NCBI GenBank assembly: GCA_024280215.1
Contig: JAJRQO010000034.1
Coordinates: 1 to 64,000 of the forward strand
Direction: 5' to 3'
Origin: Candidatus Zixiibacteriota bacterium
GTDB lineage: Bacteria > Zixibacteria > MSB-5A5 > GN15 > FEB-12
Length of the DNA: 64,000 nt
Position 1 is the stretch's first letter; the number at the start of each line of letters is the position of its first letter. Shown here one piece after another: positions 5,519 through 23,887 of the stretch. The notes under the pieces are model-generated. The model saw nothing but the letters and a program-made list of their open reading frames with translations, was not told the origin of the DNA and searched no databases. Both the position numbers and the translations under genes were made by a program.

Positions 5519-8500
5519 CTGTATAAATTTCTCTTTCTTTTAATTTCCCTATACAGCATTTCGAATGTATCGGCAAATGTGCAGTTAGTGCATTCAACTC
5601 AGTCGTCTATAACTGTTAAAGTTGAAATCGACGAAAATAAACTATCTACATATATTTCCCCCGAAAATGTGACAAGTTATTATCAATCAGTTGTTGTCGC
5701 CGTACCTTTTGATGGAGATGTCAGCTTGGGCAGTCTCAATTTGGGCGAACGAGTAGCGTCGAATAAGCTCAGTCAACCATCAAGTCTCTCAACTCGAAAT
5801 AAAATTATTGAATTTTCAGCACCACTTTTTGTACGTGGTCAAAAAATTGTAACAGTCTATATCTTTCCTGTCATTCAAAACAGCATCTATTCTAATGTTG
5901 AATTTTCTCTGAACTTTACTGGAACTATGAGTAATGAGAAATCCGTTTCTTATGACTCTCCATTTGAAAAAATGTTGTCAGCAAAAGTCTTAAATTATGA
6001 ACAGGCAAAACAGTTTGCTTCAAAAGAGAACAAGTCATTTGCTTCGGGGACACAAGCAGTAATGGGACCATTCACTGGGATAAACAACTGGAAGAAAATT
6101 GAAGTTAATCAAACAGGATTATATAAAATAACAGCTGCTCAACTTGATAATTTGGGTTTTTCAATAATTGGTAGTAATTCATCAAATATTCAAATGTACA
6201 ACGGTGGAGGAAAACAACTTCCTGTGCCAAATGAAATTGCTCGTCCAACCATGCAGGAAATCGCAATCAAAGTTGTCGATGGTGGTGATGGTACTTTTGA
6301 TTCGGGTGATTATATCTTGTTCTTTGGAGAGGCTCTTAACAGATGGGTGTATGATACTTCACAGGTACAATTTCTTAGCCATTCTTATACAGAAAATAAT
6401 GTGTATTGGCTGTCGATGAATCCATTGAAAGAAGGTTTACGAATCGAATCGGTCGACGCGTCTTTGAGTGGGGTAGTTGGTGGTTCTGTTACTCAGACTA
6501 TTGACAGGCATACAAGACGATTTCATGTTGAGCAAAATCATACTCTCAGACGATGGAGTGATAACAAAACCAATGACTACTATACGTGGTATTGGTCAAG
6601 TGATAAAAGTATGTCATTTTTTGTCCCGACCGTCAACATGATAAGTTCTGATACTGTGAAAATAAATCTTGTTGGTAAGACTATTGATACCACTGGGAGT
6701 AGTGATGATATTGGCTATATAGATTTCTATGTCAATGGTATAAAGGGTATAGACAAGTCTTGTGGACTTTCAGGTTGTACATATAGTTCAACATCATTTA
6801 TTGATGGTTCAAATCAAATTGATATGTCGCTGATGTTTAACAAAAGCGTCCCTCCATACTTTGATTTTCTTGAGCTAACTTACAACTCTTATAATGAACC
6901 TAAAAATAATCAACTTGATATTGTCTTAGGGCAGTTATCAGGTAATACGCAAATAGATGTTGTCAACGCCTTTACATCGCAACCTACAATCTTGGATATT
7001 TCAAATACAATGCATCCAAGAGAACTTGTGATTCCAGCAAATAGTTCAACAACTTTTTCGTTTTATGATACGTTATCACAGGAAAAGTTTAATAGATATT
7101 TTCTGATGCCTGAGGCACAAAGTTTATCTCCTTTATCTATTACATCGGTAGAAATGAGAGATTTATATCAATCTGGGAGTCAGATAGATTTGATTGTTAT
7201 TTCTCCTGAGTTTCTACAAAATTCTCTGAGTGAATATGTTACATATCGCACAACAATTGATCGTTCTATTCAATTAGTCACTGTTCAAGAAATTATGGAC
7301 AACTTTGCATTTGGTCTCTATGACCCTACAGGAATCAGAGATTTTTTAAAATTTACCTATGAAAACTATAACTCACCAAAGCCATCTTCAGTTTTGCTCG
7401 TTGGTGATGGTAGTTATGATTTTTTGAATAATCTTTCAACAAATATGCCTAACTATGTACCACCATATACTCATAAAACTGACAATACTGCATCAGATGA
7501 CAATTATGTTTACTTCGGAGATTTTGGAATCCTTGATTCAGACACATCGTATGATGCTTCCGAGTTTTCATTTGATAAAGGCTTTGATATGATGATTGCC
7601 CGATGGCCAGTAAGAACACCATCCGATGTACGAGTTATAACAGAAAAAATTAAATTGTATGAATCGCCTGAAAATTTTGGTGATTGGAGGAATAATATTT
7701 CTTTAGTCGCTGATGATGAATACGGTACATTTGATAACGAAACATTTCATACGACTCAAACAGAAAATTTGGAAACATATCATCTCCCACTTTCATTTAA
7801 TCGAAATAAAATTTATCTCTGGGAGTTCCCGTTTGTAAATGGTGAAAAACCTGAGGTGAATGATAAAATTGTAGATGCTTTCAATGATGGTTCTCTACTT
7901 GTTAATTATGTAGGACATGGCAATCCTGATGTCTGGGCACATGAAAATGTTTTCAACCGCTCAGGTGATTTACCACGTTTGTCAAACAGTACAAAACTTC
8001 CTCTTGTGATAGCAGCATCTTGTGCAATTGGCTTCTATGACGATCCAAGTCGTGAGGGAATGGCTGAAGAACTTTTAGCTATGCCATCAGGTGGGGCAAT
8101 AGGTGTTTTATCAGCTACACGCTTAGTTTATTCTTCTGACAATGCTCTCTATAACCGAAAAGTTTTTGATATGTTATTTTCGAATAAGTCTCTTACCATT
8201 TGTGAAGCTGCTTACACAGCCAAATTAGAACGTCAGTATCTTGGTGGAACCCCAAGACCTATTATAAATGATCGAAATTATCTCTACTTTGGTGATCCAT
8301 GTACCAAATTAGCACGACCACAGTATACAATAAATTTCTCTACTCAAATTGACTCATTAGTTGCATTAGGGCAGACGCAAGTGGTTGGAACAGTCGTTGA
8401 TAATGATGGTAATCTTATCTCTGAAAATGGTGTTTTAGAAATCAATGTTTTAGATTCAAAACGAGATAAAACATACCAGCTTACAAATGTCAATGGCCAG

Positions 8501-9376
8501 GTTACAAATGAAATAGATTATTCGACAAATGGTCCAACTATTTTCCGTGGTGCAGCATCTGTCATAGGTGGACAGTTTGACTTCACCTTTGTCTCACCAC
8601 TTGATATTGGTTTTGGTGGGGAAGGGGCTCAAGTCTCAGTTTATGCATCATTTAATTCGGTTGATGCTTCTGGTTTGATAGATTCGATTTCGATTTCAGA
8701 TTCTATTGCTGTCACAACTGATTCTATAGGTCCTGAAATTGTTGTCTCATTTACTAATCATGATAATTTTGTTTCAGGTGATTATATCAATGAGGGGGAT
8801 GCTATGATACTCAATCTAAACGATGAAACTGGTGTGAATTTAGCTGGTGGTTTAGGACATGGTATTACACTTGAGATTGATAATCAGCCTGAGAAACTAT
8901 TGAATTTAACATCCTATTTTTCATTCAATACAGATAGTTATTCAGATGGTTCACTTGAATTTCCGCTTGATGAACTCTCAGTAGGAGTTCATTCATTTAA
9001 AGTCAAGGCTTGGGATAATGCCAATAATTTTGCTACGGTTGAATTTGATGTTGAAATTAAGTCGACTACAAAGCTTGAAATCGTCAATCTACTCAATTAT
9101 CCAAACCCTATGAGTAGCTCAACCCGTTTTTCATTCAGTTTAACTCAGGAAGTCAATGAATTTGTTTTAGATATATTTACTTTATCTGGAAAAAAAATAA
9201 AAACTTTTGCTCGGAAGTATCTCGAACCAACATATTATGACGATATAGTATGGTATGGAAAAGATGTTGACGGCGATAGAGTTGCAACAGAAGTGTACAT
9301 TTATAAAGCCACTGCATATCCATCTGATGGGTCTGAAAAAGTGGAATCATTTGGAAAAATAATTTTAGTTAATTAA
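5519..9376 (+). CDS. porU: T9SS sortase PorU-like, peptidase family C25
   Basis: About 1285 residues. PorU is the outer-surface cysteine protease/sortase of type IX secretion; it removes C-terminal signals of cargo and attaches the cargo to the surface. The gingipain-like C25 domain spans roughly the middle third: LLVGDGSYDF, MIARWPVRTPSDV, then catalytic His in NYVGHGNPDVW (residue 780 of the track translation) and catalytic Cys in AASCAIGFYD (residue 815). The C-terminus has LNYPNPMSSSTRFSFSL and ends like a sorting-type beta domain. The start is unsettled: the track's GTG at 5579 removes a signal peptide that is encoded in frame just upstream (LYKFLFLLISLYSISNVSA), yet no ATG, GTG or TTG precedes it in frame. 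ATG 5509 would give MPFLYKFLFLL... if one base were removed near 5518. The coordinates here begin at CTG 5519. First gene of its operon, followed by a PorV-family gene. Confidence 0.85.
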   Translation: MYKFLFLLISLYSISNVSANVQLVHSTQSSITVKVEIDENKLSTYISPENVTSYYQSVVVAVPFDGDVSLGSLNLGERVASNKLSQPSSLSTRNKIIEFSAPLFVRGQKIVTVYIFPVIQNSIYSNVEFSLNFTGTMSNEKSVSYDSPFEKMLSAKVLNYEQAKQFASKENKSFASGTQAVMGPFTGINNWKKIEVNQTGLYKITAAQLDNLGFSIIGSNSSNIQMYNGGGKQLPVPNEIARPTMQEIAIKVVDGGDGTFDSGDYILFFGEALNRWVYDTSQVQFLSHSYTENNVYWLSMNPLKEGLRIESVDASLSGVVGGSVTQTIDRHTRRFHVEQNHTLRRWSDNKTNDYYTWYWSSDKSMSFFVPTVNMISSDTVKINLVGKTIDTTGSSDDIGYIDFYVNGIKGIDKSCGLSGCTYSSTSFIDGSNQIDMSLMFNKSVPPYFDFLELTYNSYNEPKNNQLDIVLGQLSGNTQIDVVNAFTSQPTILDISNTMHPRELVIPANSSTTFSFYDTLSQEKFNRYFLMPEAQSLSPLSITSVEMRDLYQSGSQIDLIVISPEFLQNSLSEYVTYRTTIDRSIQLVTVQEIMDNFAFGLYDPTGIRDFLKFTYENYNSPKPSSVLLVGDGSYDFLNNLSTNMPNYVPPYTHKTDNTASDDNYVYFGDFGILDSDTSYDASEFSFDKGFDMMIARWPVRTPSDVRVITEKIKLYESPENFGDWRNNISLVADDEYGTFDNETFHTTQTENLETYHLPLSFNRNKIYLWEFPFVNGEKPEVNDKIVDAFNDGSLLVNYVGHGNPDVWAHENVFNRSGDLPRLSNSTKLPLVIAASCAIGFYDDPSREGMAEELLAMPSGGAIGVLSATRLVYSSDNALYNRKVFDMLFSNKSLTICEAAYTAKLERQYLGGTPRPIINDRNYLYFGDPCTKLARPQYTINFSTQIDSLVALGQTQVVGTVVDNDGNLISENGVLEINVLDSKRDKTYQLTNVNGQVTNEIDYSTNGPTIFRGAASVIGGQFDFTFVSPLDIGFGGEGAQVSVYASFNSVDASGLIDSISISDSIAVTTDSIGPEIVVSFTNHDNFVSGDYINEGDAMILNLNDETGVNLAGGLGHGITLEIDNQPEKLLNLTSYFSFNTDSYSDGSLEFPLDELSVGVHSFKVKAWDNANNFATVEFDVEIKSTTKLEIVNLLNYPNPMSSSTRFSFSLTQEVNEFVLDIFTLSGKKIKTFARKYLEPTYYDDIVWYGKDVDGDRVATEVYIYKATAYPSDGSEKVESFGKIILVN

Positions 9377-9393: not shown

Positions 9394-12123
9394 ATGAAAC
9401 GATCAAAGCATTTGCTCTCTCTACTCACCCTTTTAATACTGTTTGCTATGGTACCTCAAAGTTTTGCCGACATTTCCGATGCGGCCTTGCTTTATTTACG
9501 TATTGCACCTGGTTCCAGAGCTGCTGGTATGGGAGAAGCGTATGTTGCTGTTGCAGATGATGCCACAGCTACCCATTGGAATCCTGCGGGTTTAGGGTCT
9601 ACACCATTGTCAAACAACTGGCAAAATAAAAATGTCCCAAGTTATCTCCAACCTCTGACGGCGATGACAACAGTAAAAGCACGTTCTGGTTCTGGATATA
9701 GTCAGTTTGATATTTGGACAATTTCAGCACAAGGATTAGCTCGATTTGATAATCATAATTGGTTTACTTCGGAAACTTTTCAAACTAAAACTACTCAAAC
9801 AGTTTCAAGTATTGTAAAAAGTTATTTTTCTATAGAGAATGATGAAGCTCTTGCCATAGCTGTAGAAAAAGTTGCCTCAGCAAACTCTAAGCGTTCATTT
9901 GAGACAATTAAGAAATTTGCGACTGATGTCTTAGCGGCAGTACCTGTTGAATACAATGATAGAGAAGCAATTAAATCTGGCTTGGATTCATTGACGACTC
10001 TTTACTTAGATTGTCGAATCAACTGGGAACGGTTTGTTGATGCCGAAAAGATTTTCAAAGATGGCATGTCTGACGGAACTCTTTCTGAAAAAGAATCTGA
10101 CCGAATTAACTTTGCTATTGAAAAATCTAAAACTCGTTTTATCCCTGAAGAGTTGAAAATAAAATATTCTGATTTATTCTCTGGTAAGTTAACAACGATT
10201 AAATCTATTGGTACTATTTTACTGATTGGAACAGACAACGGTTTTTATACTTTTGATGGTAGAAGCTGGAAAACTTTTACTACAACAGATGGTCTCCCAT
10301 CTATGCATATCCTTTCGATTACATCTATTGGTTCAAAAGCATATATCGGAACAACAAACGGTATTGTAAAATACAGTGGTAATACTCTTGCTAATGTTGA
10401 TCTTCCTGAGGGTGTTGAAAATGGTAAAGTAACTGGTATTGGTAGTGGAAACAGCTCAACGATATGGGCAGTCATTGATGGGCAACTATACCATTACAAT
10501 GGCAACGTATGGTCAAGCTCTCACTATTATACAGCCGAGTTAGATGATACCTTTGAATCAATTGCGACAAAAATTTCAATTTTCAAAACTCAATCTGATA
10601 TTAGTCTCATTGCTGAAAAAATTAAATTATTAAATGTCAATGGTGATGCTGTTGCTCAAGAAAAAGCAGCAAACTACGATGAAGGTTTTGTAACTGAAAA
10701 TGATTCTACTGACGTGGCAACAACTGATACAACTGCTACAGAAGTGCAAGCAGAAGAAATTGTACAGGATGTCGAACCTCAAACAACACACCTTCCGAAT
10801 GAGTTCACTATCGAACCTGGAAAACCAGTTGCGGTTCCTTATGCTTTAGGTATAAAAGGGAAAATTAACGAAATTTACGTGATTGGTACCAACAATATCT
10901 GGATTGCAACTGAGTTTGGTTTGTATATGTTTAAAGATGGTGTCTGGAAAGCATCAGGATATCGCACTATCAATGTAACCGCTGGACAAACATTCACCGA
11001 TATTGCTACTGAAAACATTCACCCTTATTTAAGTATCAATGAGCATGCAAGTTTTATCGCAACTTTTAATGGCTTAGATGAATCAGCCGTGCTTACAGAA
11101 GGACAAGCTTTACTCGTATACGATAACCCTTTAGCTCTTGAAATAAATGATATCGCCTCAAAAGGAAACGGACTATTTATTGGTTCTAAGCACGGTTTGT
11201 ATGAACTGAATGGTACATCATTATCAAAAGTTGATATTGGTGGTATGGGGAACTCGTCTATTTTAAGTGTTAAATCTCTTGGTGGCGAAATTTGGTATGC
11301 CTCTGATAGTCGAATTACTATCAAAGCAAATGGTCGTTCTGATATTGTTGTTATGTTTGCCAAGTGGCTTCCAGAACTAACCGATGATATTTATTATGGA
11401 TTCCTTTCAGGTGTGACAAGTATTGGTGGACTGGGTACAGTTGGTGGTAATATTACGTATATCAACTATGGTATCGTAAACCGAACCGATGCATCAGGAA
11501 ATCCTGAGGGAACATTCGAACCGTTTGATATTGGATTTACTGGTTCTTATGGTGGCTCAATTCTGGATAATCTCAAAGGTGGTTTCTCTCTTAAATATTT
11601 ATATTCACATCTGAGTTTAGTTGGTGCTGGTGCTGAAAAAGGTGCGGGTACTGCTCATGGTTTTGGTGTTGACTTTGGACTTTTATGGAACGTATCTAAT
11701 AAATTTGATATTGGTATGGCAGTAACAAACTTGGGACCAGATATTTCATATATCGATGCAGCCCAGTCGGATCCACTTCCAAGAAACCTTGCTATAGGTT
11801 TTAAAGTAAATTTGTTGAATTCAGAATATAATCGTGCTATCTTCACTGCTGAAGTAAATAAATCTCTGGTTGGTTTAAATGATGGATTTAGTGAAGAGAT
11901 TAAACAATTGGTAATCAATGGTGGTGCTGAGTATAACTACTCTGATCTCTTTGCCGTTCGTCTTGGATATATTTACGATGACGAAGGTGATGTCAAAGCC
12001 CCAACAATTGGTTTTGGTGTAAAACCTGCAGATTTGTTTAAATTTGATTTTGCTTATATTCCAAGTTCGACCAATGCTCCTCTTGCAAATACCTTACGTA
12101 TTTCGCTTGAGTTGTTACCATAA
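9394..12123 (+). CDS. porV: PorV-family outer-membrane barrel with a large propeller/LysM-like insertion
   Basis: 909 residues, more than twice a normal PorV. After a signal peptide the protein starts with the PorV hallmark APGSRAAGMGEAYVAVADDA and WNPAGL, and from about residue 655 resumes as a PorV/FadL-like barrel (DDIYYGFLSGVTSIGGLG, then glycine-rich amphipathic strands to the C-terminus). Between them (about 66-655) lie at least seven propeller-type repeats of the two-component-regulator kind, e.g. TTDGLPSMHILSITSIG and IWIATEFGLYMFKDG, a helical section (about 131-265), and two stretches resembling LysM modules (about 378-425 and 525-578, e.g. VTAGQTFTDIATENI and LTEGQALLVYD). PorV is the T9SS shuttle barrel that carries cargo from SprA to PorU, fitting its place after porU. 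The insertion and the LysM reading are inference from pattern. Confidence 0.82.
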   Translation: MKRSKHLLSLLTLLILFAMVPQSFADISDAALLYLRIAPGSRAAGMGEAYVAVADDATATHWNPAGLGSTPLSNNWQNKNVPSYLQPLTAMTTVKARSGSGYSQFDIWTISAQGLARFDNHNWFTSETFQTKTTQTVSSIVKSYFSIENDEALAIAVEKVASANSKRSFETIKKFATDVLAAVPVEYNDREAIKSGLDSLTTLYLDCRINWERFVDAEKIFKDGMSDGTLSEKESDRINFAIEKSKTRFIPEELKIKYSDLFSGKLTTIKSIGTILLIGTDNGFYTFDGRSWKTFTTTDGLPSMHILSITSIGSKAYIGTTNGIVKYSGNTLANVDLPEGVENGKVTGIGSGNSSTIWAVIDGQLYHYNGNVWSSSHYYTAELDDTFESIATKISIFKTQSDISLIAEKIKLLNVNGDAVAQEKAANYDEGFVTENDSTDVATTDTTATEVQAEEIVQDVEPQTTHLPNEFTIEPGKPVAVPYALGIKGKINEIYVIGTNNIWIATEFGLYMFKDGVWKASGYRTINVTAGQTFTDIATENIHPYLSINEHASFIATFNGLDESAVLTEGQALLVYDNPLALEINDIASKGNGLFIGSKHGLYELNGTSLSKVDIGGMGNSSILSVKSLGGEIWYASDSRITIKANGRSDIVVMFAKWLPELTDDIYYGFLSGVTSIGGLGTVGGNITYINYGIVNRTDASGNPEGTFEPFDIGFTGSYGGSILDNLKGGFSLKYLYSHLSLVGAGAEKGAGTAHGFGVDFGLLWNVSNKFDIGMAVTNLGPDISYIDAAQSDPLPRNLAIGFKVNLLNSEYNRAIFTAEVNKSLVGLNDGFSEEIKQLVINGGAEYNYSDLFAVRLGYIYDDEGDVKAPTIGFGVKPADLFKFDFAYIPSSTNAPLANTLRISLELLP

Positions 12124-12151: not shown

Positions 12152-15100
12152 TTGCTGTCAGGAAGACTGCTTTTAATAATAAATTTTGTAATATTGCTTA
12201 CTCTTGCGACTGCTTCAATTGCTGTCGCAAGGAGTAACTTATATGTTGGTAAAAAAATAAAATCTGATCCTATCGAAGGGGAGAATAGAGTTAGACACCA
12301 ATGTTTGGCCCCCCGCACAGGTGGTCTTATGGAGAAATATCTTCAAAGAGACAAGCCGTGGTCGCTACCATCAAATGCGTTAGCTGCTGATTTTTTAGAT
12401 ACGATAAAAGTCTTAGTGCTTCGTTTTAACTTTCAAGAAGAAATAACCGACGACCCTAATACAACAGGGAATGGTCTGATGAATATGTCACCGTATGATT
12501 CAGCGGCTCTTATAGCAACTGTCGGACATTTAGTCGATCCACCTCCACACAATACAGCCTATTTCTCATCACATCTGAGAGCTTTAGCAAATTATTATGA
12601 AGTTGTCTCTGAAGGAAAAATTACTCTTTCTTGGGATGTATTCCCGTCCCAACAGGACTCAGTGTACCAACTTCCATTTGCAATGAATTATTATGGGAAG
12701 TGTGATTTTTCGGAAGTCGTTGGCGGACTGGAAAATTATTTCCGTGATGGTATCAGGCTGGCTGATACGACCTCACCAGAAATTGACTTCGGACAATATG
12801 AGTCTATCTTTATGTTTCATGCTGGTTCTGATAGACAGAATGATATAGGTTTTCCAGAGACATGCAGCGATTTATTCACCGGTTTTATAAGATATGCTGT
12901 TGCCAGTGATAGTGACTTAGTTATCGTTGATAATGGGCAGGATACTATCAGTAGTGCTTTGCTTATGCCAGAAACAGCATCGCAGGACAACCGAGCCACC
13001 GCCCTCAATGCTGTTATGGCTCATGAATTTGGTCACCAGCTTGGTTTGGTTGATTTGTACAGTACTTCAACCTTTATGAGTCAGCTTGGCGATTTTGCTT
13101 TGATGGATAACAATGGTTTTGGTACAGGTGTTGATTTTGGTTTTGAAGTTGGACGTACTTTTGGTGCTATTCCTGTGTTCCCAACGGCATGGTCACGAGC
13201 ACATCTTGGGTTTGTAGAAGTTGTCGATTTCAGACAAGGTTCTGATATTCAATTGGTCGCTGCGGAAGTTGTATCATCGGGTATTAAAATTGCTCGCGTA
13301 CCAATCTCTGACAAAGAATACTATTTACTTGAAAATAGAAATGTCGAGGTCGACGGGGAAGTGACTGGTGTTTTGGCTGATTCTACAACAGGTGTCTTTA
13401 TGGGACCTGCCTATTGTACCACAACTCCATGTGAACGAAATGTAAATAATAATATTATCAATGCTATTCTAACAAATGAATACGACGCTCTACTTCCTGG
13501 TTCGGGGCTTATTATCTACCATATTGACGAAAGAGTCGCTGGTTTAGATTATAACTTTGATGGTGAATCAAACTTTGATGACAACCAACTGCAATGGGCG
13601 TGGGATATTACTGGTACGCCTGTAGACAGATTTATTTCGATAGTCGAGGGAGATGGTTTTGTAAACTTTGGCGGGTTTTATCGTTCTGGTTTTGGGCGTG
13701 AGGAAGATATGTATCGTGATGATCGCAACACTGCTTTTACGCCAAACTCCAATCCACAGTCGATTGATAACTCCGGCAACAATACACGAATCTCTATTGA
13801 CAATATAACCCGAGTGTTAGATACGACTCTAATCAAACCAAAACTTATGGATTCAGTTATTCAGTTTGATGTAACTACTGAAGATTTAGTGCAAAACTTT
13901 CCTGTACGAGTAGGTTCACCTATTCGCTCCGATAATTCAGTCATTCCGATTCCACCAATTGTCGATGATTTGAATCATGATGGGGTTGATGAAATAATTG
14001 TTATCTCAAAAGATTTACTCTCTGTAGTGACAACAACGGGACAAGATTTTTTAGAGATGATTGACCCATGCGGATGTCCTCCATATTTAGATTCATCGTT
14101 TGCTTCGATACATCCGGGTAGAGTTCATGAGGTTCCATTGTTTGTAAAACTGACGTCCGAGGCATTCACTACACCAGTTACGGGAGAGTTTCTTGATGAT
14201 AACGATCCGAATAAACTTATTGCTATTGGTATCAACAATCGAATTGATATTTATCGAGTTAGTGATATTGACAATAATGGACAAGCTGATATTGCGGCAC
14301 CTCCTTTTACAACGGGAAACTTAGGTAATCCAATTGCTATGACATTTGGTGACAGATTATTTGTCTTAACCGACCGAGGATATATTTTACGAAAAGATTC
14401 CTTGTTCAGTCCGTATGATACTCTCGGACAATTTGACAATGATTTATACCATGGTATTTGTCGAGTCGACAATGGTATTGCACTTATAGCAGGCGACTCT
14501 CTTGAGACTTCGGTGTATTTTATTGATGGCAATGTTATAGATTCAATGGCATTGGGTGATTTGTATACCTTAGGTCCGATATTTGTTGACCTTGATCTTG
14601 ATGGTGCTAAAGAGCTTGTCGCAGCCACCAATGATGGAAAAATTATTTTAGTTTCGATAAATTCAGCTCTTTCAGTAAATAATATTTCTATTAAAGATGT
14701 AAAAGATTTGGGTGTTAACTTCACTGTAAATCCAATTGTTTCAGATGTTGATTTAGACGGCTATCCTGATATTGTCATAGGTGGTACCAATGCTGTCTAT
14801 GCATACAATTACGAATTAACAATCAAAACATCTTTTCCAATTGAAATAAATAAAAAATATCCAAATGACAGAGTGAGTCATTCATTGATTGCTGCTGACA
14901 TTGAAGATGGAGGCAGGGTAGAGCTTGTCATGCCTACTGAAATTGGTAATCTCTACGCCTTTGGTGAAGAAATGGCACAGGACTTCCCACTTTCTGGTGG
15001 TGAACAGCTTATTGGCTCAGCTGTATTTTTAAACGATGCGATGGGTGGAAAACTTGGTTATCTCGGTGCTGATGGATGGTTCTATCTCTGGCATGTTGAT

Positions 15101-15487
15101 GCTGATAGCACCTACAATTTTTGGCCGATGGCTGGTAATAACCCATCAGGGAATCTTAATTTTGAATCATCAAAATTACCATCTACTCAGACGTATGCTG
15201 ACAAACTTTCTAAGAAATCTTTTTATAACTATCCTAACCCTGTCACAACAGGAAGTACAACTATTCGATATTTCTTAGGAGAAGATGCATCCTCGGTTGA
15301 ATTAGTTGTATTTGATTTAAGTGGTAAAGAAATTAGTCGGTTCGATGGACCATCAACTGGAATGGTTGACAATGAAGTTGTATGGGAATGTTCTGGTGTG
15401 ACACCTGGAGTATACCGTTGCGTCATCTCTGCTGAATTTAATAGTGGCAAAGAAACATCATACACAGATATTTCGATTATAAAATAA
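12152..15487 (+). CDS. Secreted M6-type metalloprotease with sorting domain
   Basis: 1111 residues. TTG 12152 is chosen as start because AGGAG lies seven bases upstream and a signal peptide follows (LLLIINFVILLTLATASIAVA). The zinc motif AHEFGHQLGLVDLY (His291, Glu292, His295) identifies an immune-inhibitor-A/M6 peptidase. Further on are calcium-binding or FG-GAP-like repeats of the DLNHDGVDEIIV and DVDLDGYPDIVIG type, which form a propeller. The C-terminus has NYPNPVTTGSTTIRYFL and VFDLSGKEISRF and a VTPGVYRCVI strand, the layout of T9SS type A sorting domains. It is the likely cargo of the neighbouring PorU/PorV. It would be secreted across the outer membrane and cut or anchored by PorU. 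Substrate unknown. Confidence 0.85.
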   Translation: MLSGRLLLIINFVILLTLATASIAVARSNLYVGKKIKSDPIEGENRVRHQCLAPRTGGLMEKYLQRDKPWSLPSNALAADFLDTIKVLVLRFNFQEEITDDPNTTGNGLMNMSPYDSAALIATVGHLVDPPPHNTAYFSSHLRALANYYEVVSEGKITLSWDVFPSQQDSVYQLPFAMNYYGKCDFSEVVGGLENYFRDGIRLADTTSPEIDFGQYESIFMFHAGSDRQNDIGFPETCSDLFTGFIRYAVASDSDLVIVDNGQDTISSALLMPETASQDNRATALNAVMAHEFGHQLGLVDLYSTSTFMSQLGDFALMDNNGFGTGVDFGFEVGRTFGAIPVFPTAWSRAHLGFVEVVDFRQGSDIQLVAAEVVSSGIKIARVPISDKEYYLLENRNVEVDGEVTGVLADSTTGVFMGPAYCTTTPCERNVNNNIINAILTNEYDALLPGSGLIIYHIDERVAGLDYNFDGESNFDDNQLQWAWDITGTPVDRFISIVEGDGFVNFGGFYRSGFGREEDMYRDDRNTAFTPNSNPQSIDNSGNNTRISIDNITRVLDTTLIKPKLMDSVIQFDVTTEDLVQNFPVRVGSPIRSDNSVIPIPPIVDDLNHDGVDEIIVISKDLLSVVTTTGQDFLEMIDPCGCPPYLDSSFASIHPGRVHEVPLFVKLTSEAFTTPVTGEFLDDNDPNKLIAIGINNRIDIYRVSDIDNNGQADIAAPPFTTGNLGNPIAMTFGDRLFVLTDRGYILRKDSLFSPYDTLGQFDNDLYHGICRVDNGIALIAGDSLETSVYFIDGNVIDSMALGDLYTLGPIFVDLDLDGAKELVAATNDGKIILVSINSALSVNNISIKDVKDLGVNFTVNPIVSDVDLDGYPDIVIGGTNAVYAYNYELTIKTSFPIEINKKYPNDRVSHSLIAADIEDGGRVELVMPTEIGNLYAFGEEMAQDFPLSGGEQLIGSAVFLNDAMGGKLGYLGADGWFYLWHVDADSTYNFWPMAGNNPSGNLNFESSKLPSTQTYADKLSKKSFYNYPNPVTTGSTTIRYFLGEDASSVELVVFDLSGKEISRFDGPSTGMVDNEVVWECSGVTPGVYRCVISAEFNSGKETSYTDISIIK

Positions 15488-15497
15488 GGATATAGAG

Positions 15498-16406
15498 ATG
15501 AAGAAATATATACTTGTAACATTGTTATTTGTTTTCCCTTTAACTTTGAATGCGACTGATTTTTTAACGCATTCCGAGTTCGATAACGCAAAAGCCGAGA
15601 TTCAATTCTCTCTTTTACATAATCAGATTAGTTATGAAAAATATCAAGCAACAGAATCTGATGGGATAACATATAATGGTGGTGCTTCTTCTTCAAATAA
15701 AGATGTGACCTATAAATCACCTGGGAAAGCATTTGCGATGTCAATGCTCATTCCTGGTTGGGGACAACATTATAATGGTAGTAGCAAAGTTAAATCTCTG
15801 GCATTCTTAGGGGCAGAAATTACAAGTTGGGTCTTCTATTTTAAGTTGCACGGTGATGCCGAAAGTTTAACTGATGACTATGAACAATTCAATCGTGATC
15901 ATTGGATTGAATCTCGTTACGACTCTTTACTCCTCTGGACATATCCCGACAGAGATGCGAACCCTGGGTTATATCCAGAAATGAGTCATCATCTGCCTGA
16001 CGATCCAAATGACCAACAGTACTTTGAAATGACGGGAAAGTATGACCAGTTTTCATGGGGTTGGGATGATGCCATATTGCTTTCTGACAGTTCAATTTTT
16101 TCTGATTATAGTGTGAATAATCCGTTTGATCGAGTTCATATTCCAGAACAAGTACCATTCTCCGCCAAGAGAAACGCCTATGAAATTATGCGTGATGATG
16201 CTAATAATAAATATAGTCAAGCCAGAAAAATGATTTATGTTTCAATGATAAATAGAATTATTTCAGGTTTTGAAGCGATGATAACTGCTAAGAAAAATAA
16301 TAAAAATAGCAATTCTGGTTTTTCATCAGTTTCTGCTGAAGCATCATTTAAAAGTCTCTATGTAAAAAGAGACACTCCATACATAACTTTGAGCATGAAG
16401 TTTTAA
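15498..16406 (+). CDS. DUF5683-like secreted/membrane protein, paralogue A
   Basis: 302 residues with a signal peptide (MKKYILVTLLFVFPLTLNA). The diagnostic part is KAFAMSMLIPGWGQHYNGSSKVKSLAFLGAE, matching the 'S-x-x-PG-x-GQ-x-Y-x-G' segment of DUF5683-type proteins that are common in FCB genomes; a hydrophobic segment follows. The second half is charged, with a region rich in Asp, Tyr and Pro, and ends in a probable helix-strand (RMIYVSMINRIISGFEAMI). The next gene encodes a paralogue. The family has no settled function; its place in a T9SS operon suggests an envelope role. Ribosome site AAGGATA lies just after the protease stop. Confidence 0.7.
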   Translation: MKKYILVTLLFVFPLTLNATDFLTHSEFDNAKAEIQFSLLHNQISYEKYQATESDGITYNGGASSSNKDVTYKSPGKAFAMSMLIPGWGQHYNGSSKVKSLAFLGAEITSWVFYFKLHGDAESLTDDYEQFNRDHWIESRYDSLLLWTYPDRDANPGLYPEMSHHLPDDPNDQQYFEMTGKYDQFSWGWDDAILLSDSSIFSDYSVNNPFDRVHIPEQVPFSAKRNAYEIMRDDANNKYSQARKMIYVSMINRIISGFEAMITAKKNNKNSNSGFSSVSAEASFKSLYVKRDTPYITLSMKF

Positions 16407-16416
16407 GAGGATACAT

Positions 16417-17208
16417 ATGAATAAAATTTATAGTGCTATTATAATTGTTACAATGTTGTTGATTATGGTGTTGCCAACTCAGGCGATTGAATTATCAAAA
16501 ACTCCGATTCAAACGAAGTTACAAAATTCAATATTACTGGCAACTGATAATTGGAATCTTGGCTCCGATGAAGGTAAGAAAAATTCAACTGTACTGAGTA
16601 ATAAAAATTCTCAAAAAAAATCTGCTCTTAAAGCTGCCTTATACTCCGCACTATTACCTGGCTTAGGTGAACATTATGTTGGAAATCGGACTAAATCCAA
16701 AGTTTTTTTTGCGATTGAAGCAACGACTTGGTTGAGTTATTTTGCCTTTAATAAATATGGTGATTGGAAAAAAGATGACGCCATTCGTTTTGCATCAAGC
16801 AATGCGGGAGCATCGCTTGAAGATAAAGATGACGAGTTCTTTGACTGGGTTGGTTTCTATAATTCATCTGAAGATTTTAACTCGCTCGGACGAGTCTCAG
16901 ACCCAGAGAGAGCCTATCTTTCTTCATCGGACACTTATTGGCAATGGTCATCGGATGCCGACAGGGAAGCCTTTCGTACGTATAAGAACAGTAGCCGCTC
17001 AGCATACGATAGAGCGAACTTTATGATTATGGCGGCAATCAGTAGTAGAATAATTTCAATCATTGATGCAATCCGTGATGCCAATAGACATAATAAAAAT
17101 GCTGAGAAGATTGATATTTCAAAAAACAACTCATTTAACTATAAATTTTCTCTGAATCCGATGAGTGAAAATAATCAATTCTCTATAACGCTCTTTACAC
17201 CATTTTAA
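16417..17208 (+). CDS. DUF5683-like secreted/membrane protein, paralogue B
   Basis: 263 residues, same build as the gene before it: signal peptide (MNKIYSAIIIVTMLLIMVLPTQA), a linker, then ALYSALLPGLGEHYVGNRTKSKVFFAIEA with a membrane-associated stretch, a charged middle and the ending RANFMIMAAISSRIISIIDAI that matches YVSMINRIISGFEAMI of paralogue A. The shared ends show a tandem duplication. GAGGA precedes the start by about eight bases. Its stop overlaps the next ATG (TTTTAATGG), so the NHL lipoprotein is translationally coupled. Function unknown. Confidence 0.7.
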   Translation: MNKIYSAIIIVTMLLIMVLPTQAIELSKTPIQTKLQNSILLATDNWNLGSDEGKKNSTVLSNKNSQKKSALKAALYSALLPGLGEHYVGNRTKSKVFFAIEATTWLSYFAFNKYGDWKKDDAIRFASSNAGASLEDKDDEFFDWVGFYNSSEDFNSLGRVSDPERAYLSSSDTYWQWSSDADREAFRTYKNSSRSAYDRANFMIMAAISSRIISIIDAIRDANRHNKNAEKIDISKNNSFNYKFSLNPMSENNQFSITLFTPF

Positions 17209-18164
17209 TGGTTCCTCATATGCGTATCGTTTGCTTGATGATTTTTATTGTAACTCTTGGCTGTTCATCAGTTGATGAAAAAGTTATTCCTCAAGAAACA
17301 ACTCGGCAGTTACAGATGAATCTTGTTTTTGAAAAAGAATTAAAAGGGGAGTTTTTTGGAGTACCGCTTAATAAACCAATCGGAGTTGCTCTTGACTATT
17401 CTGGAAATATTTTTATCGTAGATGCGGGTAATAATAGAGTCTTGAAATTTGATAGCAAACTCAATCCACTAAAACAAATAGGTGGTTTTGGAGCAAGTGA
17501 GGGAAATTTTAATTTCCCTACGTATATTAGTTTTGATAATGGTTTAAATCTGATGGTCTCCGACGAAAAGAACCGTCGTATCGCACGCTTTAACTCGCAA
17601 CTACAATATGTTGACGAAATCTTATTTTCCGATGAGGAAGAGCCTCTCAAATTTGGATTTCCTTCAGGAATTAGTTTCACTAACTTCGGAGAGGTATGGA
17701 TTGCTGACCGAGATAATAACCAGATTGCAATTTTTAATAACATTGGGAAATACTCACATTCTCTCGGAGAGTTCGGCTATTCAGGCGGCCAATTGTCGTC
17801 ACCTGAAAAAATTATTAGAGATTTCAATGGTGATTTTTTAGTGTGTGATGCTGGTAACAAGCGAGTTGTTCGTTATGATGAGTATGCAAGTTTTCAAACA
17901 GAATTCAAACATGACTACTTTGAATATCCTACTGCAATCACAATCAAAGATGAAAAATATTTTATCTTAGATTCTTATTTAGGGTCAATTTTTTGTTTAG
18001 ATAAAAATGGTTATTTGATTGGGGAAATTGATTCAAAGTTACTTGGGGATAAAGCTAATATGTTTAACCCATCTGATTTAATTTTTATTTCTGAAGACCA
18101 ATTACTTATTACTGATACTGGAAATGACAGGGTTGTGGTCGGTAAACTTATTATAGATGAATAG
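17208..18164 (+). CDS. NHL-repeat beta-propeller lipoprotein
   Basis: 318 residues. ATG 17208 overlaps the previous stop; ATG 17220 (MRIVCLMIFIVTLGC) is an alternative that fits the lipoprotein signal better, with lipobox VTLGC. The mature part is a chain of NHL-type blades: NKPIGVALDYSGNIFIVDAG, DNGLNLMVSDEKNRRIARF, NFGEVWIADRDNNQIAIF, DFNGDFLVCDAGNKRVVRY and LLITDTGNDRVVV. Six or so blades would close a propeller used for protein or ligand binding. It would be lipid-anchored in the envelope. In this operon it is a candidate accessory factor of the secretion machinery, by position only. Confidence 0.82.
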   Translation: MVPHMRIVCLMIFIVTLGCSSVDEKVIPQETTRQLQMNLVFEKELKGEFFGVPLNKPIGVALDYSGNIFIVDAGNNRVLKFDSKLNPLKQIGGFGASEGNFNFPTYISFDNGLNLMVSDEKNRRIARFNSQLQYVDEILFSDEEEPLKFGFPSGISFTNFGEVWIADRDNNQIAIFNNIGKYSHSLGEFGYSGGQLSSPEKIIRDFNGDFLVCDAGNKRVVRYDEYASFQTEFKHDYFEYPTAITIKDEKYFILDSYLGSIFCLDKNGYLIGEIDSKLLGDKANMFNPSDLIFISEDQLLITDTGNDRVVVGKLIIDE

Positions 18165-18175
18165 TAGGTGTTGGT

Positions 18176-21100
18176 GTGCGTTACCTCTTACTTTCTCTTG
18201 CTTGTTTCATCTGCTTTTCAACCTATACGGATGCTTCTCCAATAAAAGTTATGTATGTTGGTGATGAAATTCCCAAACATATTAAACTGAACTCACACAC
18301 GATTATTACCAATTCAGATACTCTACGACTTAATCATACCATTTTACGCCGTGACATTGATTACAAATTTAATAGTAAGTTTATGCGGTTTGAATTGTTG
18401 CTTTCAACAAATTCATCCGATAGTCTGACCGTACGCTACCAATTACTACCCTCATGGCTTAAACAAAAATATGGTACTGCCCTACCTATACTCACTCCAC
18501 AATCTAAAAAAGCAAAAATCTATATCCCTCAGAATTTGAATTCTACTAATCAGACATCATCCGATATAACAATGAATGGCTCCAAATCATTTCGCTTCTC
18601 AACATCAAAATCAGGCAATGCGGGTTTTAATCAAACTTTAGATTTGAATTTGTCAGGACAACTTGCTAAAAATTTGACTTTACAAGGAACAATCTCCGAT
18701 AGAGGTTACAATCCTACTTACGGAACTTCTAATAGTCGTTTAAATGAATTAGACAAAATTAATTTACGGATAGAATCACCAAATTTTAAAACTGAAATAG
18801 GTGATATTACAATTTTGTCAAATGAGAGCAACGCTCAAAGAGAAAAAAAGATTTCAGGGCTTCATGTTGCTCTACAAAATAAAAACATACAACTCGGTAT
18901 GATTGCTGCTCGACCGAAAGGGCAGTATCGTTCAGTCTCACTAATAGGAATTATTAACAAGCAAGGTCCTTACCAGATAAAATCAGATGGAGCCAGACAA
19001 GCGATAATTCCAGGCTCAGAAACTGTGTGGCTTGATGGTATTAAGCTCAAGCGTGGAACCAATGATGACTACACTTTGGATTACCCAAATGGACAAATAA
19101 CCTTTAACGTGAACCACCTCATTGACAGTCGGAGTCGTATTGTCGTAGATTTTGAACCACTATCGTCTGAGTATAAACAAAAATATTTGCATGCTACAAC
19201 AAATTTATATTCAACTGATACAACATATACCTTCAAGTTCAATTGGATTCGTGAGGGGGATAATCAAGACGAAAATCTCTCACAATCATTTTCTGAGTCT
19301 GATGAACTACTACTCGCCAGCCAATCAGGTGATGAATTGGTTTTTAAGTCTGGTCTACTTTCTGACACCCTTGGTGCTTACGAACTTATTTTAGACTCTC
19401 TACCTGATACTATTTACACCTTTGTTGGTGAAGAACTTGGGCATTATGATGTCCGTTTCTCGTTTGTCGAAGCAGGCAAAGGGGACTATCTTTATATTGG
19501 TGGTAATCAGTATACATATGTAGGTTCAAACAACGGAGATTATTTACCACTGATTTTATTACGTACCCCCAAACAGACTGATTATCTGACCAGCTCATTT
19601 CAAATTAAAAATGGGTTGTTCGGTACATTACAAACCGAATGGATGCAAAGTAGAAAAATTAACAACCTGTTTGCAAATGATGTTAAGGCTGAGAATGAAA
19701 ATTATTATAACCTTAACTATAAGAAACAATTCATTGACTCAAAAAACAGAGTGCTGGCATCGTACCGTAAACGTGAAAATGGTTTTCAGGAAAGAAGCAG
19801 AGTCAATCAGGCAGATTATCAATACGATTTTTATCTACCTGCCCAAATTATTCTTACCAGCGATGAGGAAATTTTATCTCTGGCTTCTCAGATTTCTCTC
19901 ACGCAATCATTTCAAATTACGCCAGAATACAGCGTCTTAGACTATAATAATCAGTTTAATGCAAAAAAATATTCTCTGAAAACAAATTTTAGACCATTCA
20001 AGAAATTTAGTATAAAAGCTGATGTACAAAAAATTAAAACTAAATTGACCGATACACTTAGTGCAATTGGTAGCTCTAATAATTTGTTTTTACAAAGTAC
20101 ATATAGAATTTCAAGTAGTACCAACATGACAAGTTCTTTTAATCGAATAGAGCGAACAAACAATTATACTTCAATTTTGACTGGCTTTACCTATGACGAA
20201 TACATTTTGAAACTTTCAAGTAAATATTCTGCACTATCGTTTCAATACTATACTGAAGATTCTCTTTCCCTAAGTTGGCAGTTAAAAAAGAAAAGAAGAC
20301 GGTTACAGTTTGTGACAACAAATAAGTTCAAACTCTTAGATTATAAGTTGCAAATTCATTATCAACAAATTGAGACTACCTCAACAGATGACGCCTCTCT
20401 TATGACAAGGGCAAATTTCACCTATGATAATAGAAAGAAAAATCTACAAATTCAATCTTCATATATTCTATCAAATGAAACTCGTTTTAGTAAAGGGATT
20501 CGTTATCTTCAAGTAAACGATGGTGAGGGGGACTATATTTTCAGGGATAGTCAGTATGTCCCTGAAGCAGGCGGGGATTTTATCGTCGTAGAAGAACTTC
20601 TCTCAGAATCAGCCGATGTTAAGCGAGGCGAAAAGTCATTTTCTGTTTTGAGAAGATGGAAAAAGGCTTCTCTTACATATCATAGTAATATCAAGGAGGA
20701 ACTTTTTGCCGACGAGTCAAGAAGCACGGCATGGATTATCCCATTTTACTCAAATGATAAAAAACTCTACCTTTTTTATAACCGTTCTGAAAAAGCAAGT
20801 CTGAAAGCTTTCCCGATTAAGGGTGGGCATTTCTTTACTGTTAATATATTACAACAAAAAGAACAACGCTATATCAATCAGCTTAATCGTTTGAAAGAAT
20901 CATTGACGCTTGACTTCATGTTTAATCAATCTGTTCAAAAATTTTATTTCGAACAAAAATATGAATATTTCAGTAACCAAAGAGACCAGTATTATTTTCG
21001 CGATGGTGATGTTAATGGCTTTGCTCTCTCAGGTAAGATTAAAAAACTTGCAGGAAATAATGACTACGCGATTCAATTTAAGTACCGTTCTTCAGAGGAC

Positions 21101-21391
21101 GCCAATTTAGAAGATTCAAAATTATATATTCTGCTACTTGAAAATAGGTTTCAGTTTAAAAAACAGACTGAACTAAAAATAAGTTCTGAATTCTATAAAT
21201 CGAATAAGCAGGGTTCAGATAGTTATCTGCTAACAGATAATCGACCAGGAAGCCAAGGTGCAATATGGTCGGTAATTTTTAGAGCAAAAATAAAAAAAGA
21301 ATTTCGCCTGAACATGACAATTCAAGGGCGTCATTCAGACAGCAATCAAGCACGTATATTTGCGAGGACTGAATTTGTTGCACAATTTTAA
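18176..21391 (+). CDS. SprA-related outer-membrane protein ('mini-SprA')
   Basis: 1071 residues, GTG start, signal peptide (MRYLLLSLACFICFSTYTDA). Its N-terminal half is alignable by eye with the SprA encoded at 44.7 kb in this same window. The segment GSETVWLDGIKLKRG..DDYTLDYPNGQITF..SRIVVDFEP corresponds to GSERITANGDLLVKGQDYDINYDFGQVTL..SEIKIDFEY in SprA, and the preceding LQGTISDRGYNP..IESPNFKTEIGD region matches SprA's TIGSKITVKVSQDSQTDI..SIEAGNTTL region. The C-terminal half is rich in alternating aromatic/polar strands typical of a large barrel and ends in Phe (TEFVAQF). SprA forms the T9SS pore; this half-length relative lacks most of its length, so the role is open. It overlaps the next gene, an Omp85-family barrel, which suggests they work as a pair. 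Confidence 0.7.
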   Translation: MRYLLLSLACFICFSTYTDASPIKVMYVGDEIPKHIKLNSHTIITNSDTLRLNHTILRRDIDYKFNSKFMRFELLLSTNSSDSLTVRYQLLPSWLKQKYGTALPILTPQSKKAKIYIPQNLNSTNQTSSDITMNGSKSFRFSTSKSGNAGFNQTLDLNLSGQLAKNLTLQGTISDRGYNPTYGTSNSRLNELDKINLRIESPNFKTEIGDITILSNESNAQREKKISGLHVALQNKNIQLGMIAARPKGQYRSVSLIGIINKQGPYQIKSDGARQAIIPGSETVWLDGIKLKRGTNDDYTLDYPNGQITFNVNHLIDSRSRIVVDFEPLSSEYKQKYLHATTNLYSTDTTYTFKFNWIREGDNQDENLSQSFSESDELLLASQSGDELVFKSGLLSDTLGAYELILDSLPDTIYTFVGEELGHYDVRFSFVEAGKGDYLYIGGNQYTYVGSNNGDYLPLILLRTPKQTDYLTSSFQIKNGLFGTLQTEWMQSRKINNLFANDVKAENENYYNLNYKKQFIDSKNRVLASYRKRENGFQERSRVNQADYQYDFYLPAQIILTSDEEILSLASQISLTQSFQITPEYSVLDYNNQFNAKKYSLKTNFRPFKKFSIKADVQKIKTKLTDTLSAIGSSNNLFLQSTYRISSSTNMTSSFNRIERTNNYTSILTGFTYDEYILKLSSKYSALSFQYYTEDSLSLSWQLKKKRRRLQFVTTNKFKLLDYKLQIHYQQIETTSTDDASLMTRANFTYDNRKKNLQIQSSYILSNETRFSKGIRYLQVNDGEGDYIFRDSQYVPEAGGDFIVVEELLSESADVKRGEKSFSVLRRWKKASLTYHSNIKEELFADESRSTAWIIPFYSNDKKLYLFYNRSEKASLKAFPIKGGHFFTVNILQQKEQRYINQLNRLKESLTLDFMFNQSVQKFYFEQKYEYFSNQRDQYYFRDGDVNGFALSGKIKKLAGNNDYAIQFKYRSSEDANLEDSKLYILLLENRFQFKKQTELKISSEFYKSNKQGSDSYLLTDNRPGSQGAIWSVIFRAKIKKEFRLNMTIQGRHSDSNQARIFARTEFVAQF

Positions 21392-23003
21392 TAAGCATAG
21401 GCTGATTGTTCAGTTTGTATTAGTCATACTGTACACTACTCTTTGTAGTGCTGAAGTGTTACAGTTTTCCGAGAGTGACAGTGTGTCGTTACAAAATGAG
21501 ATTGCCAGACAGACAGCTCTACATAATATTGATTCGCTCTCGTCATACTTAGTCAATCTTGGTTATCTCAATTCTCAGGTATATAAATCAAATGATACTC
21601 TTCATGTTACATTGGGGGATCAATTCTCTTTAGGCGTAATTATATTGTCTTCTGTTGTACCAACAACAGTTCACATTGACAAATTATTGACAAATGAAAC
21701 TGTTACAGCTGAAATAGATAAAATTATTCAGATAGAAAAAGACAAAGGCTATCAGTTTGCAACGATAACTATAGATTCAACATCAATAACATCATCTGAT
21801 GTAAATCTTTATTGCACACTACAAAAAGGTCCAATGCTCTATGTAGATTCTCTGAAATTTGAGGGACTAAAAAAATCTAATCATTCTATGCTCCACAAAT
21901 ATTTTAGCATTACCGATTCAATAATTTCTCCTAACTTGCTGTCTGTTCTTGAAAACGACGCAAAAAGAATTCCATACCTTTCGTTTCTTCCTCCAATCAA
22001 ACAAGAGCTCAAACAAGGCTATCAATCGGCTGATATAATTATTCCATTTAGTGAAAACAGAAATATCCTCTTTGAAGGAGGTGGGGGATATCTCTCCGAG
22101 ACAGAGCTTTTCCTATGGAACGTATCATTTCAATTTCAGAATCTTTTTGGGAAAGGAAAAGAAGTTTCCTTTCTTTCGCAAAAAAAAGATGAAAACAATC
22201 AGCAGCTTATTTTTAATTATAGGCAACCGTTTTTTTTACTCGGTGTCGGCTCAGCACAACTTGGAGTGCAAACTCGAGATTATCGTAATCAGTTCTATGA
22301 ATTTGTAACGAATGCCTCAATGAAAACTTACTATAAGAAAAAACTGTATACACAGCTATCGGGAAGATATAAATCTGTTGAGCAAGACATGAACCCGTCA
22401 TATCGTTCTGTTGAACTTGCTTTTGCGATAAGCAATAAAACCAACTATTCAAATTCTGAAGTTGTAAATACTTTTAATTATGCTTCAAAATTTAGTTATG
22501 GAAACCGTAAGTATTCTGACGATTCGTTATTTACAAGTCTCTCACAAAAATCATTTAATGAGTCCAGAATCGAGATTAACACGCAACTGGTAACAGTTTT
22601 AAAAAACAACTATGTCATGTTTACAAATTTAAAATTTCAAAGTTTTCAAACTGATGAAGAACTACCGCCGCTCGCAGAACTCTATTTAGTCGGTGGAAGT
22701 AACTCTATCAGAAGCTATAAAGATGAAATCTTTCCATCAATTCGAAATCTTACTGCAACTTTTGAACCACAATATAATTTTGGTTCTGGCGATTTCTTTT
22801 TATTTTACGATGCAGGTTATATCTATAATCGTACAGCATCTGAATCAAACGAAATTGTCGAATCAACAATCTTCCGTTCTGGCTATGGTGTAGGCATCTC
22901 TATTTTAAATGACGATAATTCTTTAAAAATATCATTTGGATGGAACAAAGAGCTTTCATTTGATACTCCTCGTATATCTCTGCAATTAAAAACTGGATTA
23001 TAA
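21375..23003 (+). CDS. Omp85-superfamily (BamA/TamA-like) outer-membrane protein
   Basis: About 542 residues. The track starts at TTG 21360, but GAGGA at 21364-21368 places TTG 21375 (or 21378) at proper spacing and leads straight into a signal peptide (LIVQFVLVILYTTLCSA). The N-terminal part holds POTRA-like modules (YVDSLKFEGLKKSNHSMLHKYF). The C-terminal barrel includes YLVGGSNSIRSYKDEIFPS, the VRGY/RGF-type motif of loop L6 in Omp85 proteins, and ends SFDTPRISLQLKTGL. Omp85 proteins insert barrels or move proteins and lipids across the outer membrane. It overlaps the mini-SprA gene by 17 bases, so it is translationally coupled to it. It is shorter than BamA (about 800), nearer TamA or patatin-type lengths. 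Confidence 0.8.
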   Translation: MLHNFNKHRLIVQFVLVILYTTLCSAEVLQFSESDSVSLQNEIARQTALHNIDSLSSYLVNLGYLNSQVYKSNDTLHVTLGDQFSLGVIILSSVVPTTVHIDKLLTNETVTAEIDKIIQIEKDKGYQFATITIDSTSITSSDVNLYCTLQKGPMLYVDSLKFEGLKKSNHSMLHKYFSITDSIISPNLLSVLENDAKRIPYLSFLPPIKQELKQGYQSADIIIPFSENRNILFEGGGGYLSETELFLWNVSFQFQNLFGKGKEVSFLSQKKDENNQQLIFNYRQPFFLLGVGSAQLGVQTRDYRNQFYEFVTNASMKTYYKKKLYTQLSGRYKSVEQDMNPSYRSVELAFAISNKTNYSNSEVVNTFNYASKFSYGNRKYSDDSLFTSLSQKSFNESRIEINTQLVTVLKNNYVMFTNLKFQSFQTDEELPPLAELYLVGGSNSIRSYKDEIFPSIRNLTATFEPQYNFGSGDFFLFYDAGYIYNRTASESNEIVESTIFRSGYGVGISILNDDNSLKISFGWNKELSFDTPRISLQLKTGL

Positions 23004-23041: not shown

Positions 23042-23887
23042 ATGAACAAATCTCTCCCATACCTACAAATCATCAGACCAGTAAATTGTCTTTTAGCATC
23101 AATTGCAGTTTGGGTTGGAGCAATGATGACATGGGGCGAGCCAGAGATACTCAATCCGTTGATTGCCTCGCTCGCGACATTTTTGGTCTGTGCTTCTGGC
23201 AATATCGTCAATGATATAGTGGATGTACATATCGACCGAATCAATCGCCCCGAGAGAGTACTCGTACAACAAAAATTATCAATTACAATTGCAAAAGTAT
23301 ATGCAACACTACTAAACATAATCGCACTCAGCTTAGCACTCTTTATCAATCTTGATGTATTCATCGCCGCATTATCGGCAATTAGCTTACTTTATCTGTA
23401 TAATTATAAAGCCAAACAAGCACCCCTTATTGGAAATATCATCATCGCTCTGCTTGCTGGAATGGTTTTTATCACTGGTGGACTTTCTATAAATCGGGTT
23501 TTGACTATGACCCTTCCTGGTCCATTGATTGGAGCGATTTTTGCCTTTCTGTTTCATCTTGTAAGAGAAATTATCAAAGATATCGAAGATATAGATGGCG
23601 ACTTGCAGGCGGGACTCAAAACTATTCCGATTCTTTTTGGGAAACGAGTTTCGGTAGTTGTAGCTATGATTCTATTTTTGATTTTGACACTTTTTACTTA
23701 TTATCCGATTTTCAGTGGTTGGTACTCTGATTGGTATAAAATTCTGACAGTATATGTCGTCGATTTACCATTGCTGGCGTTTTTGATATTTCTTTGGGGT
23801 AATCCAAATAGGAAAATGTTGGCGGCGACATCATTACTATTAAAAATTGGTATGGGAATCGGTATAGTAGCACTTATTTTTTCATAA
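23042..23887 (+). CDS. UbiA-family prenyltransferase (possibly DGGGP-synthase type)
   Basis: 281 residues, about eight or nine membrane segments. Both Asp-rich motifs of the UbiA family are present: NDIVDVHIDRINRP near residue 57 and DIEDIDGDLQAGLKTIP near residue 180. They bind Mg-pyrophosphate and the isoprenoid. The motif spelling and length resemble geranylgeranylglycerol-phosphate geranylgeranyltransferases and (bacterio)chlorophyll/menaquinone-type enzymes. No menaquinone, haem O or chlorophyll genes are nearby, so the substrate cannot be settled. FCB bacteria are known to carry archaeal-type ether-lipid genes, which makes the DGGGP-synthase option worth testing. It follows the Omp85 gene by about 40 bases and is probably the last gene of the operon. 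Confidence 0.8.
   Translation: MNKSLPYLQIIRPVNCLLASIAVWVGAMMTWGEPEILNPLIASLATFLVCASGNIVNDIVDVHIDRINRPERVLVQQKLSITIAKVYATLLNIIALSLALFINLDVFIAALSAISLLYLYNYKAKQAPLIGNIIIALLAGMVFITGGLSINRVLTMTLPGPLIGAIFAFLFHLVREIIKDIEDIDGDLQAGLKTIPILFGKRVSVVVAMILFLILTLFTYYPIFSGWYSDWYKILTVYVVDLPLLAFLIFLWGNPNRKMLAATSLLLKIGMGIGIVALIFS

Follow-up and report, generated by a model that had tools for sequence, protein, structure and literature searches.

In the genomes of Candidatus Zixiibacteriota two genes, here called A and B, nearly always adjoin and are retained or lost as a pair. This pattern suggests that they encode a separate, uncharacterised outer-membrane machine. Judged from its sequence, A is a distant relative of SprA, and its product is predicted to form a giant beta-barrel; B is a BamA-like member of the Omp85 superfamily. 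SprA is regarded as a translocon that works on its own, and a full-length copy is encoded in the same window (the whole stretch of DNA that was analysed, 64,000 nucleotides of a Candidatus Zixiibacteriota (GN15) genome). The features on which the comparison is based are the following:

18176 to 21391, + strand: gene A, 1071 aa, SprA superfamily, a predicted giant beta-barrel in the outer membrane
18275 to 18451, + strand: A residues 34-92, the first 'DY..DY' module, a homologue of SprA 606-675
18554 to 18949, + strand: block of strands towards the N-terminus of A (residues 127-258), with weak co-linearity to SprA 160-303
18992 to 19261, + strand: second module of A and the next strand (residues 273-362), homologous to SprA 620-708
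21360 to 23003, + strand: gene B, an Omp85 resembling BamA and TamA, with a 16-strand barrel and three POTRA domains
44674 to 50817, + strand: full-length SprA/Sov, the true T9SS translocon of the window (NCBIfam TIGR04189)

The window's SprA is readily recognised by the curated models (TIGR04189, 565 bits; PF14349, 68 bits), whereas A matches neither of them. Indeed, A matches none of the families in Pfam and NCBIfam, a sequence search of the PDB gave no match to it, and the viral contigs searched hold no relative. When A is compared directly with the window's SprA by BLASTP, its residues 274-327 align with SprA 621-672 (E 4e-5 over 54 residues) and a second stretch, residues 13-98, pairs with the same SprA module (E 0.03). 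A profile comparison with 24 A proteins also gave two matches, both to one SprA module. The deeper comparison, of 80 A proteins from two phyla with 25 SprA-type proteins, matched A 277-362 to SprA 624-708 (E 9.7e-11, probability 97%), A 25-92 to SprA 606-675 (about E 9e-6) and A 127-258 to SprA 160-303 (E 0.0056); a column-reversed SprA profile, employed as a control, reached a best E of only 0.068. With a SprA-like protein from Firestonebacteria as the template, the match covers A 127-329 (E 5.8e-6). The SprA-like part of A thus comprises residues 25-92 and 127-362, in co-linear order, and one SprA module occurs twice in it. The original prediction that A is related to SprA is borne out by both BLASTP and the profiles, and the kinship does lie at the N-terminal end of the protein, but it extends over about a third of A and not over the half that had been proposed.

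The 'DY..DY' module of SprA in the window (46495-46695, SprA residues 608-674) also matches the phage tail tube family NF052337 (E 4e-4), and the A module at one Fibrobacterota locus, L148, matches DUF2460 (E 2e-4). Since the shared module is weakly phage-tail-like, it is not by itself specific to SprA and is no proof of kinship; the claim that A is related to SprA rests therefore on the co-linear second block together with the structural match described below.

The A product has an N-terminal signal peptide, an N-terminal module, and approximately 40 predicted strands that run from residue 130 to the C-terminal Phe. Its AlphaFold2 model (31 sequences; mean pLDDT 82) contains 40 strands that are 7 residues or longer; in the family average, 38 of them exceed the 90th percentile of the amphipathicity obtained with shuffled columns, and the other two are weakly amphipathic. 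A Foldseek search with this model against 350,542 PDB chains placed SprA at ranks 1, 2 and 7 (8gl6, 8gl8 and 6h3i, respectively), with low TM-scores of 0.21-0.27. The model supports a predicted barrel-like remainder of A beyond the SprA-like part, much as had been suggested. Loop lengths alternate between short and long, consistently from either end, and this pattern would place in the periplasm both termini and also two large insertions, near residues 258-332 and 368-455. The LysM domain at the N-terminus of the A-like proteins of a third phylum, described below, fits such a periplasmic N-terminus. In the AlphaFold2 prediction most extracellular loops are short and some are long (18-30 residues), while the long insertions are on the periplasmic side.

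SprA/Sov is the 36-strand translocon of the T9SS (PDB 6h3i and 8gl6; PMC10994853), and A shares with it the homologous N-terminal strand block and modules, the giant predicted barrel and the best PDB matches. However, A has about half the length, escapes both SprA models, coexists with a true SprA, is followed by an Omp85 gene and has been lost in lineages that keep the T9SS. A single copy of A, with no paralogues, was found in the genome.

The start codon of B is uncertain, with in-frame TTG codons at 21360, 21375 and 21378 and no ATG there, so the 32-nt overlap with A holds only if translation begins at the TTG at 21360. In relatives from the same phylum B starts between -17 and +9 nt from the A stop, and the tight coupling of the two genes is therefore real. 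That the second gene belongs to the Omp85 family, as had been proposed, is supported by its AlphaFold2 model (pLDDT 87.5), with three POTRA domains and 16 strands; the top structural matches are BamA and TamA, the latter being the closest length-matched fold (TM 0.64). The B family has an L6 motif with the consensus GTLRGY, and B matches the BamA model TIGR03303 with an E of 5e-15 and 55 bits, against a cut-off of 297; a Pfam scan gave no family at E<=1. Some B relatives of about 485-490 aa seem, from their length, to be without the first POTRA domain.

B is not the BamA of this genome, considering its 55 bits versus 297, its three POTRA domains versus five and its loss in several lineages; a separate 871-aa Omp85 of BamA-like size is found on another contig (C38). 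It has instead the architecture of the BamA-like Omp85 subfamily, whose members have 1-3 POTRA domains and always occur in addition to BamA (PMC4104836), but it differs from them in that the giant barrel gene accompanies it constantly, a pairing of which the literature searched gave no example. B is near TamA in size and fold, as in the TamA-TamB (TAM) system or TamL of Bacteroidota (PMC12045153), but the TamB of the genome is also on C38, where a different Omp85 lies about 1 kb downstream of it, and A is a predicted barrel whereas TamB is a periplasmic protein. B was therefore rejected as the TamA of a TAM. Finally, in two-partner secretion (TpsB/FhaC with TpsA) an Omp85 gene likewise adjoins that of its presumed client, but TpsA is an exported passenger and A a predicted membrane barrel, and B has no match to the TpsB-type families ShlB or POTRA_2.

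The pair is part of a larger gene cluster, with the conserved order PorU-PorV-M6-DUF5683-DUF5683-NHL-A-B-UbiA-MoxR and small variations across the families of Zixiibacteriota. In the window the neighbours of A and B are:

5579 to 9376, + strand: PorU, T9SS sortase at the start of the cluster (NF033707, 693 bits)
9394 to 12123, + strand: PorV-family protein with a long N-terminal extension, conserved across the phylum
12152 to 15487, + strand: M6-like T9SS-dependent protein (NF052323, 277 bits, under its 600-bit cut-off)
15498 to 16406, + strand: DUF5683 protein, one of two, conserved neighbour
16417 to 17208, + strand: DUF5683 protein, the other of two, conserved neighbour
17208 to 18164, + strand: NHL-repeat beta-propeller lipoprotein, a candidate partner directly upstream of A
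23042 to 23887, + strand: UbiA prenyltransferase, conserved neighbour downstream of B

The PorV domain of the second of these proteins is at residues about 647-906, behind an extension of about 640 residues, which has a weak YneA-type match (E 0.001). The tandem DUF5683 genes are kept also in genomes without A and B. Among the NHL proteins, 25 of 35 sequences have a lipobox-like motif by a strict pattern. At one locus (L165, genome G067) NHL-A-B-UbiA is present and no PorU, PorV or M6 gene was recognised upstream.

To judge how widely the pair occurs we have employed a sample of 133 Candidatus Zixiibacteriota genomes, the E-values of these whole-genome searches being per genome. The A profile also retrieves the SprA module in many genomes, at about 45 bits, and these matches, which are to the SprA module only, were left out of the A counts. 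A is present in 113 genomes and B in 103, with both in 101, neither in 18, A only in 12 and B only in 2 (Fisher p 2e-12, in a test that ignores shared descent). For the high-quality genomes the corresponding figures are 60 with both, 11 with neither, 8 with A only and none with B only (p 8e-9, shared descent again ignored). In both of the B-only genomes B is at the very start of a contig. Half of the A-only genomes (6/12) belong to a single family, f19, and the others are mostly cut off at contig ends; both f19 genomes inspected have a diverged Omp85 directly after A.

At eight loci of relatives that lack A, B is missing with it from an otherwise intact cluster, the NHL gene being kept in four and lost in four; PorU and SprA are present in all eight genomes. 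On a tree of the neighbouring M6 protein this joint absence needs four changes, at least three of which are forced by well supported branches. Because A and B are lost jointly while PorU and SprA are kept, the pair is a unit that can be separated from the type IX core, and the absence of A from genomes with SprA and PorU argues against a core T9SS role for it. Nor is A a replacement for SprA, for 60 of 61 relatives have SprA whether or not A is present. The recurrence of the pair across Zixiibacteriota excludes an artefact of a single genome, and the pair is ancestral in the phylum. The separate system envisaged in the original prediction thus stands as regards its separability from the T9SS core, but the pair is situated in a T9SS cluster throughout the phylum.

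Besides Zixiibacteriota, the searches covered Fibrobacterota and the phylum of a Firestonebacteria MAG. In Fibrobacter MAGs A is directly followed by an Omp85 gene, and a full SprA is also present. Hence A and B adjoin across Zixiibacteriota and in Fibrobacter, and a profile search does relate A to SprA; these are the two points on which the original prediction had been made to depend. A-profile matches were obtained in 100 of the 101 Fibrobacterota genomes sampled, one (G209) being weak enough for the SprA module, and most of the longer Fibrobacterota homologues inspected are without an adjoining Omp85. At two of the 17 Fibrobacterota loci inspected (L140 and L148) the A homologue comes directly after genes for an ABC ATPase, an MlaD/MCE protein, an ABC auxiliary lipoprotein and a 580-aa protein. 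One Fibrobacter locus (L070, 267-1648) has genes for an MglA-like Ras GTPase and a Roadblock protein upstream of the pair, and in one Fibrobacterota locus (L135, 10454-12574) the Omp85 adjoining A is larger, at 703 aa, with two POTRA matches in Pfam. In the third phylum, that of the Firestonebacteria MAG, A-like proteins of about 1020-1040 aa occur in three genomes; an NHL lipoprotein gene is upstream in two of them and the third begins at a contig end, and none of the three has B downstream.

We would put at about even the chances that A is a giant pore of the SprA superfamily and B its dedicated assembly factor. A would then be an outer-membrane barrel of about 36-40 strands, stripped of most of the extra SprA domains, and B, an extra BamA-like Omp85, would fold and insert it. 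Once assembled, A might form a large open pore, an accessory route for the export or surface display of some putative cargo beside the type IX system. BamA has a beta-propeller lipoprotein, BamB, as a partner, and by analogy the NHL lipoprotein could be a helper of B; this is a reasonable guess, against which counts the persistence of the NHL gene at four loci without A and B. The A genes of Fibrobacterota and the third phylum that have no neighbouring B imply that A apparently can assemble without one nearby. The BAM of Bacteroidota has extra subunits, and across the FCB phyla their occurrence is correlated with that of complex OMPs, SprA among them (PMC12611786); in this light it is plausible that a giant barrel should have an Omp85 of its own. 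A and B, with the NHL lipoprotein, might even constitute an undescribed outer-membrane protein export route, in which a second, compact giant pore of the SprA type is served by an Omp85 of its own; it would be ancestral in Zixiibacteriota, with relatives in Fibrobacterota and a third phylum. This wider reading seems to us rather less likely than not. No paper on SprA-like outer-membrane proteins, or on type IX in Zixibacteria/GN15, was found in the literature searched.

Alternatively, B could be a working part, beyond assembly, of a two-protein export channel with A, or A could be another T9SS translocon that handles part of the cargo. In favour of this are the fold and modules that A and the T9SS pore have in common, the embedding of the pair in the PorU-PorV cluster throughout Zixiibacteriota and the full SprA that the pair-bearing genomes of this phylum and of Fibrobacter also hold. 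It nevertheless seems rather unlikely, since the pair has disappeared on at least three occasions from lineages that keep PorU and SprA, A lacks most of the length of SprA and no link to cargo or carrier was found. It is also conceivable, if quite doubtful, that A serves lipid or envelope homeostasis as the outer-membrane end of a lipid-transport route, with B in a TamA-like role. The ABC-MlaD-lipoprotein operon ahead of A in two Fibrobacterota loci and the TamA fold as the closest length-matched one for B point in this direction; however, 15 of the 17 loci inspected are without that operon, the TamB of the window's genome has its own Omp85 neighbour elsewhere, and neither MlaD nor TamB is among the named A neighbours in the Zixiibacteriota loci listed.

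It is improbable that A, assembled by B, acts as a scaffold at the surface or as an adhesin anchor and not as a pore: the longer of the predicted extracellular loops and the T9SS surface-protein genes of the cluster would suit it, but most of those loops are short and the long insertions are on the predicted periplasmic side. Finally, the adjacency could be incidental and the SprA likeness of A merely a common beta-module, of the sort suggested by the weak matches to phage tail families. This is highly improbable, being contradicted by the adjacency in two phyla, by the loss of both genes together and by a second, co-linear block of homology.

With A as a giant pore and B as its assembly factor, the pair would be a testable case of a client-dedicated Omp85 with a giant barrel as the client; a single barrel made up of all 40 predicted strands of A would have more strands than the 36 of SprA. 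A compact SprA relative that is inherited and lost with an Omp85 offers a handle on both the assembly of giant barrels and the origin of the type IX pore, and the A-B pair is an unannotated, phylum-wide component of the envelope of these uncultivated bacteria.
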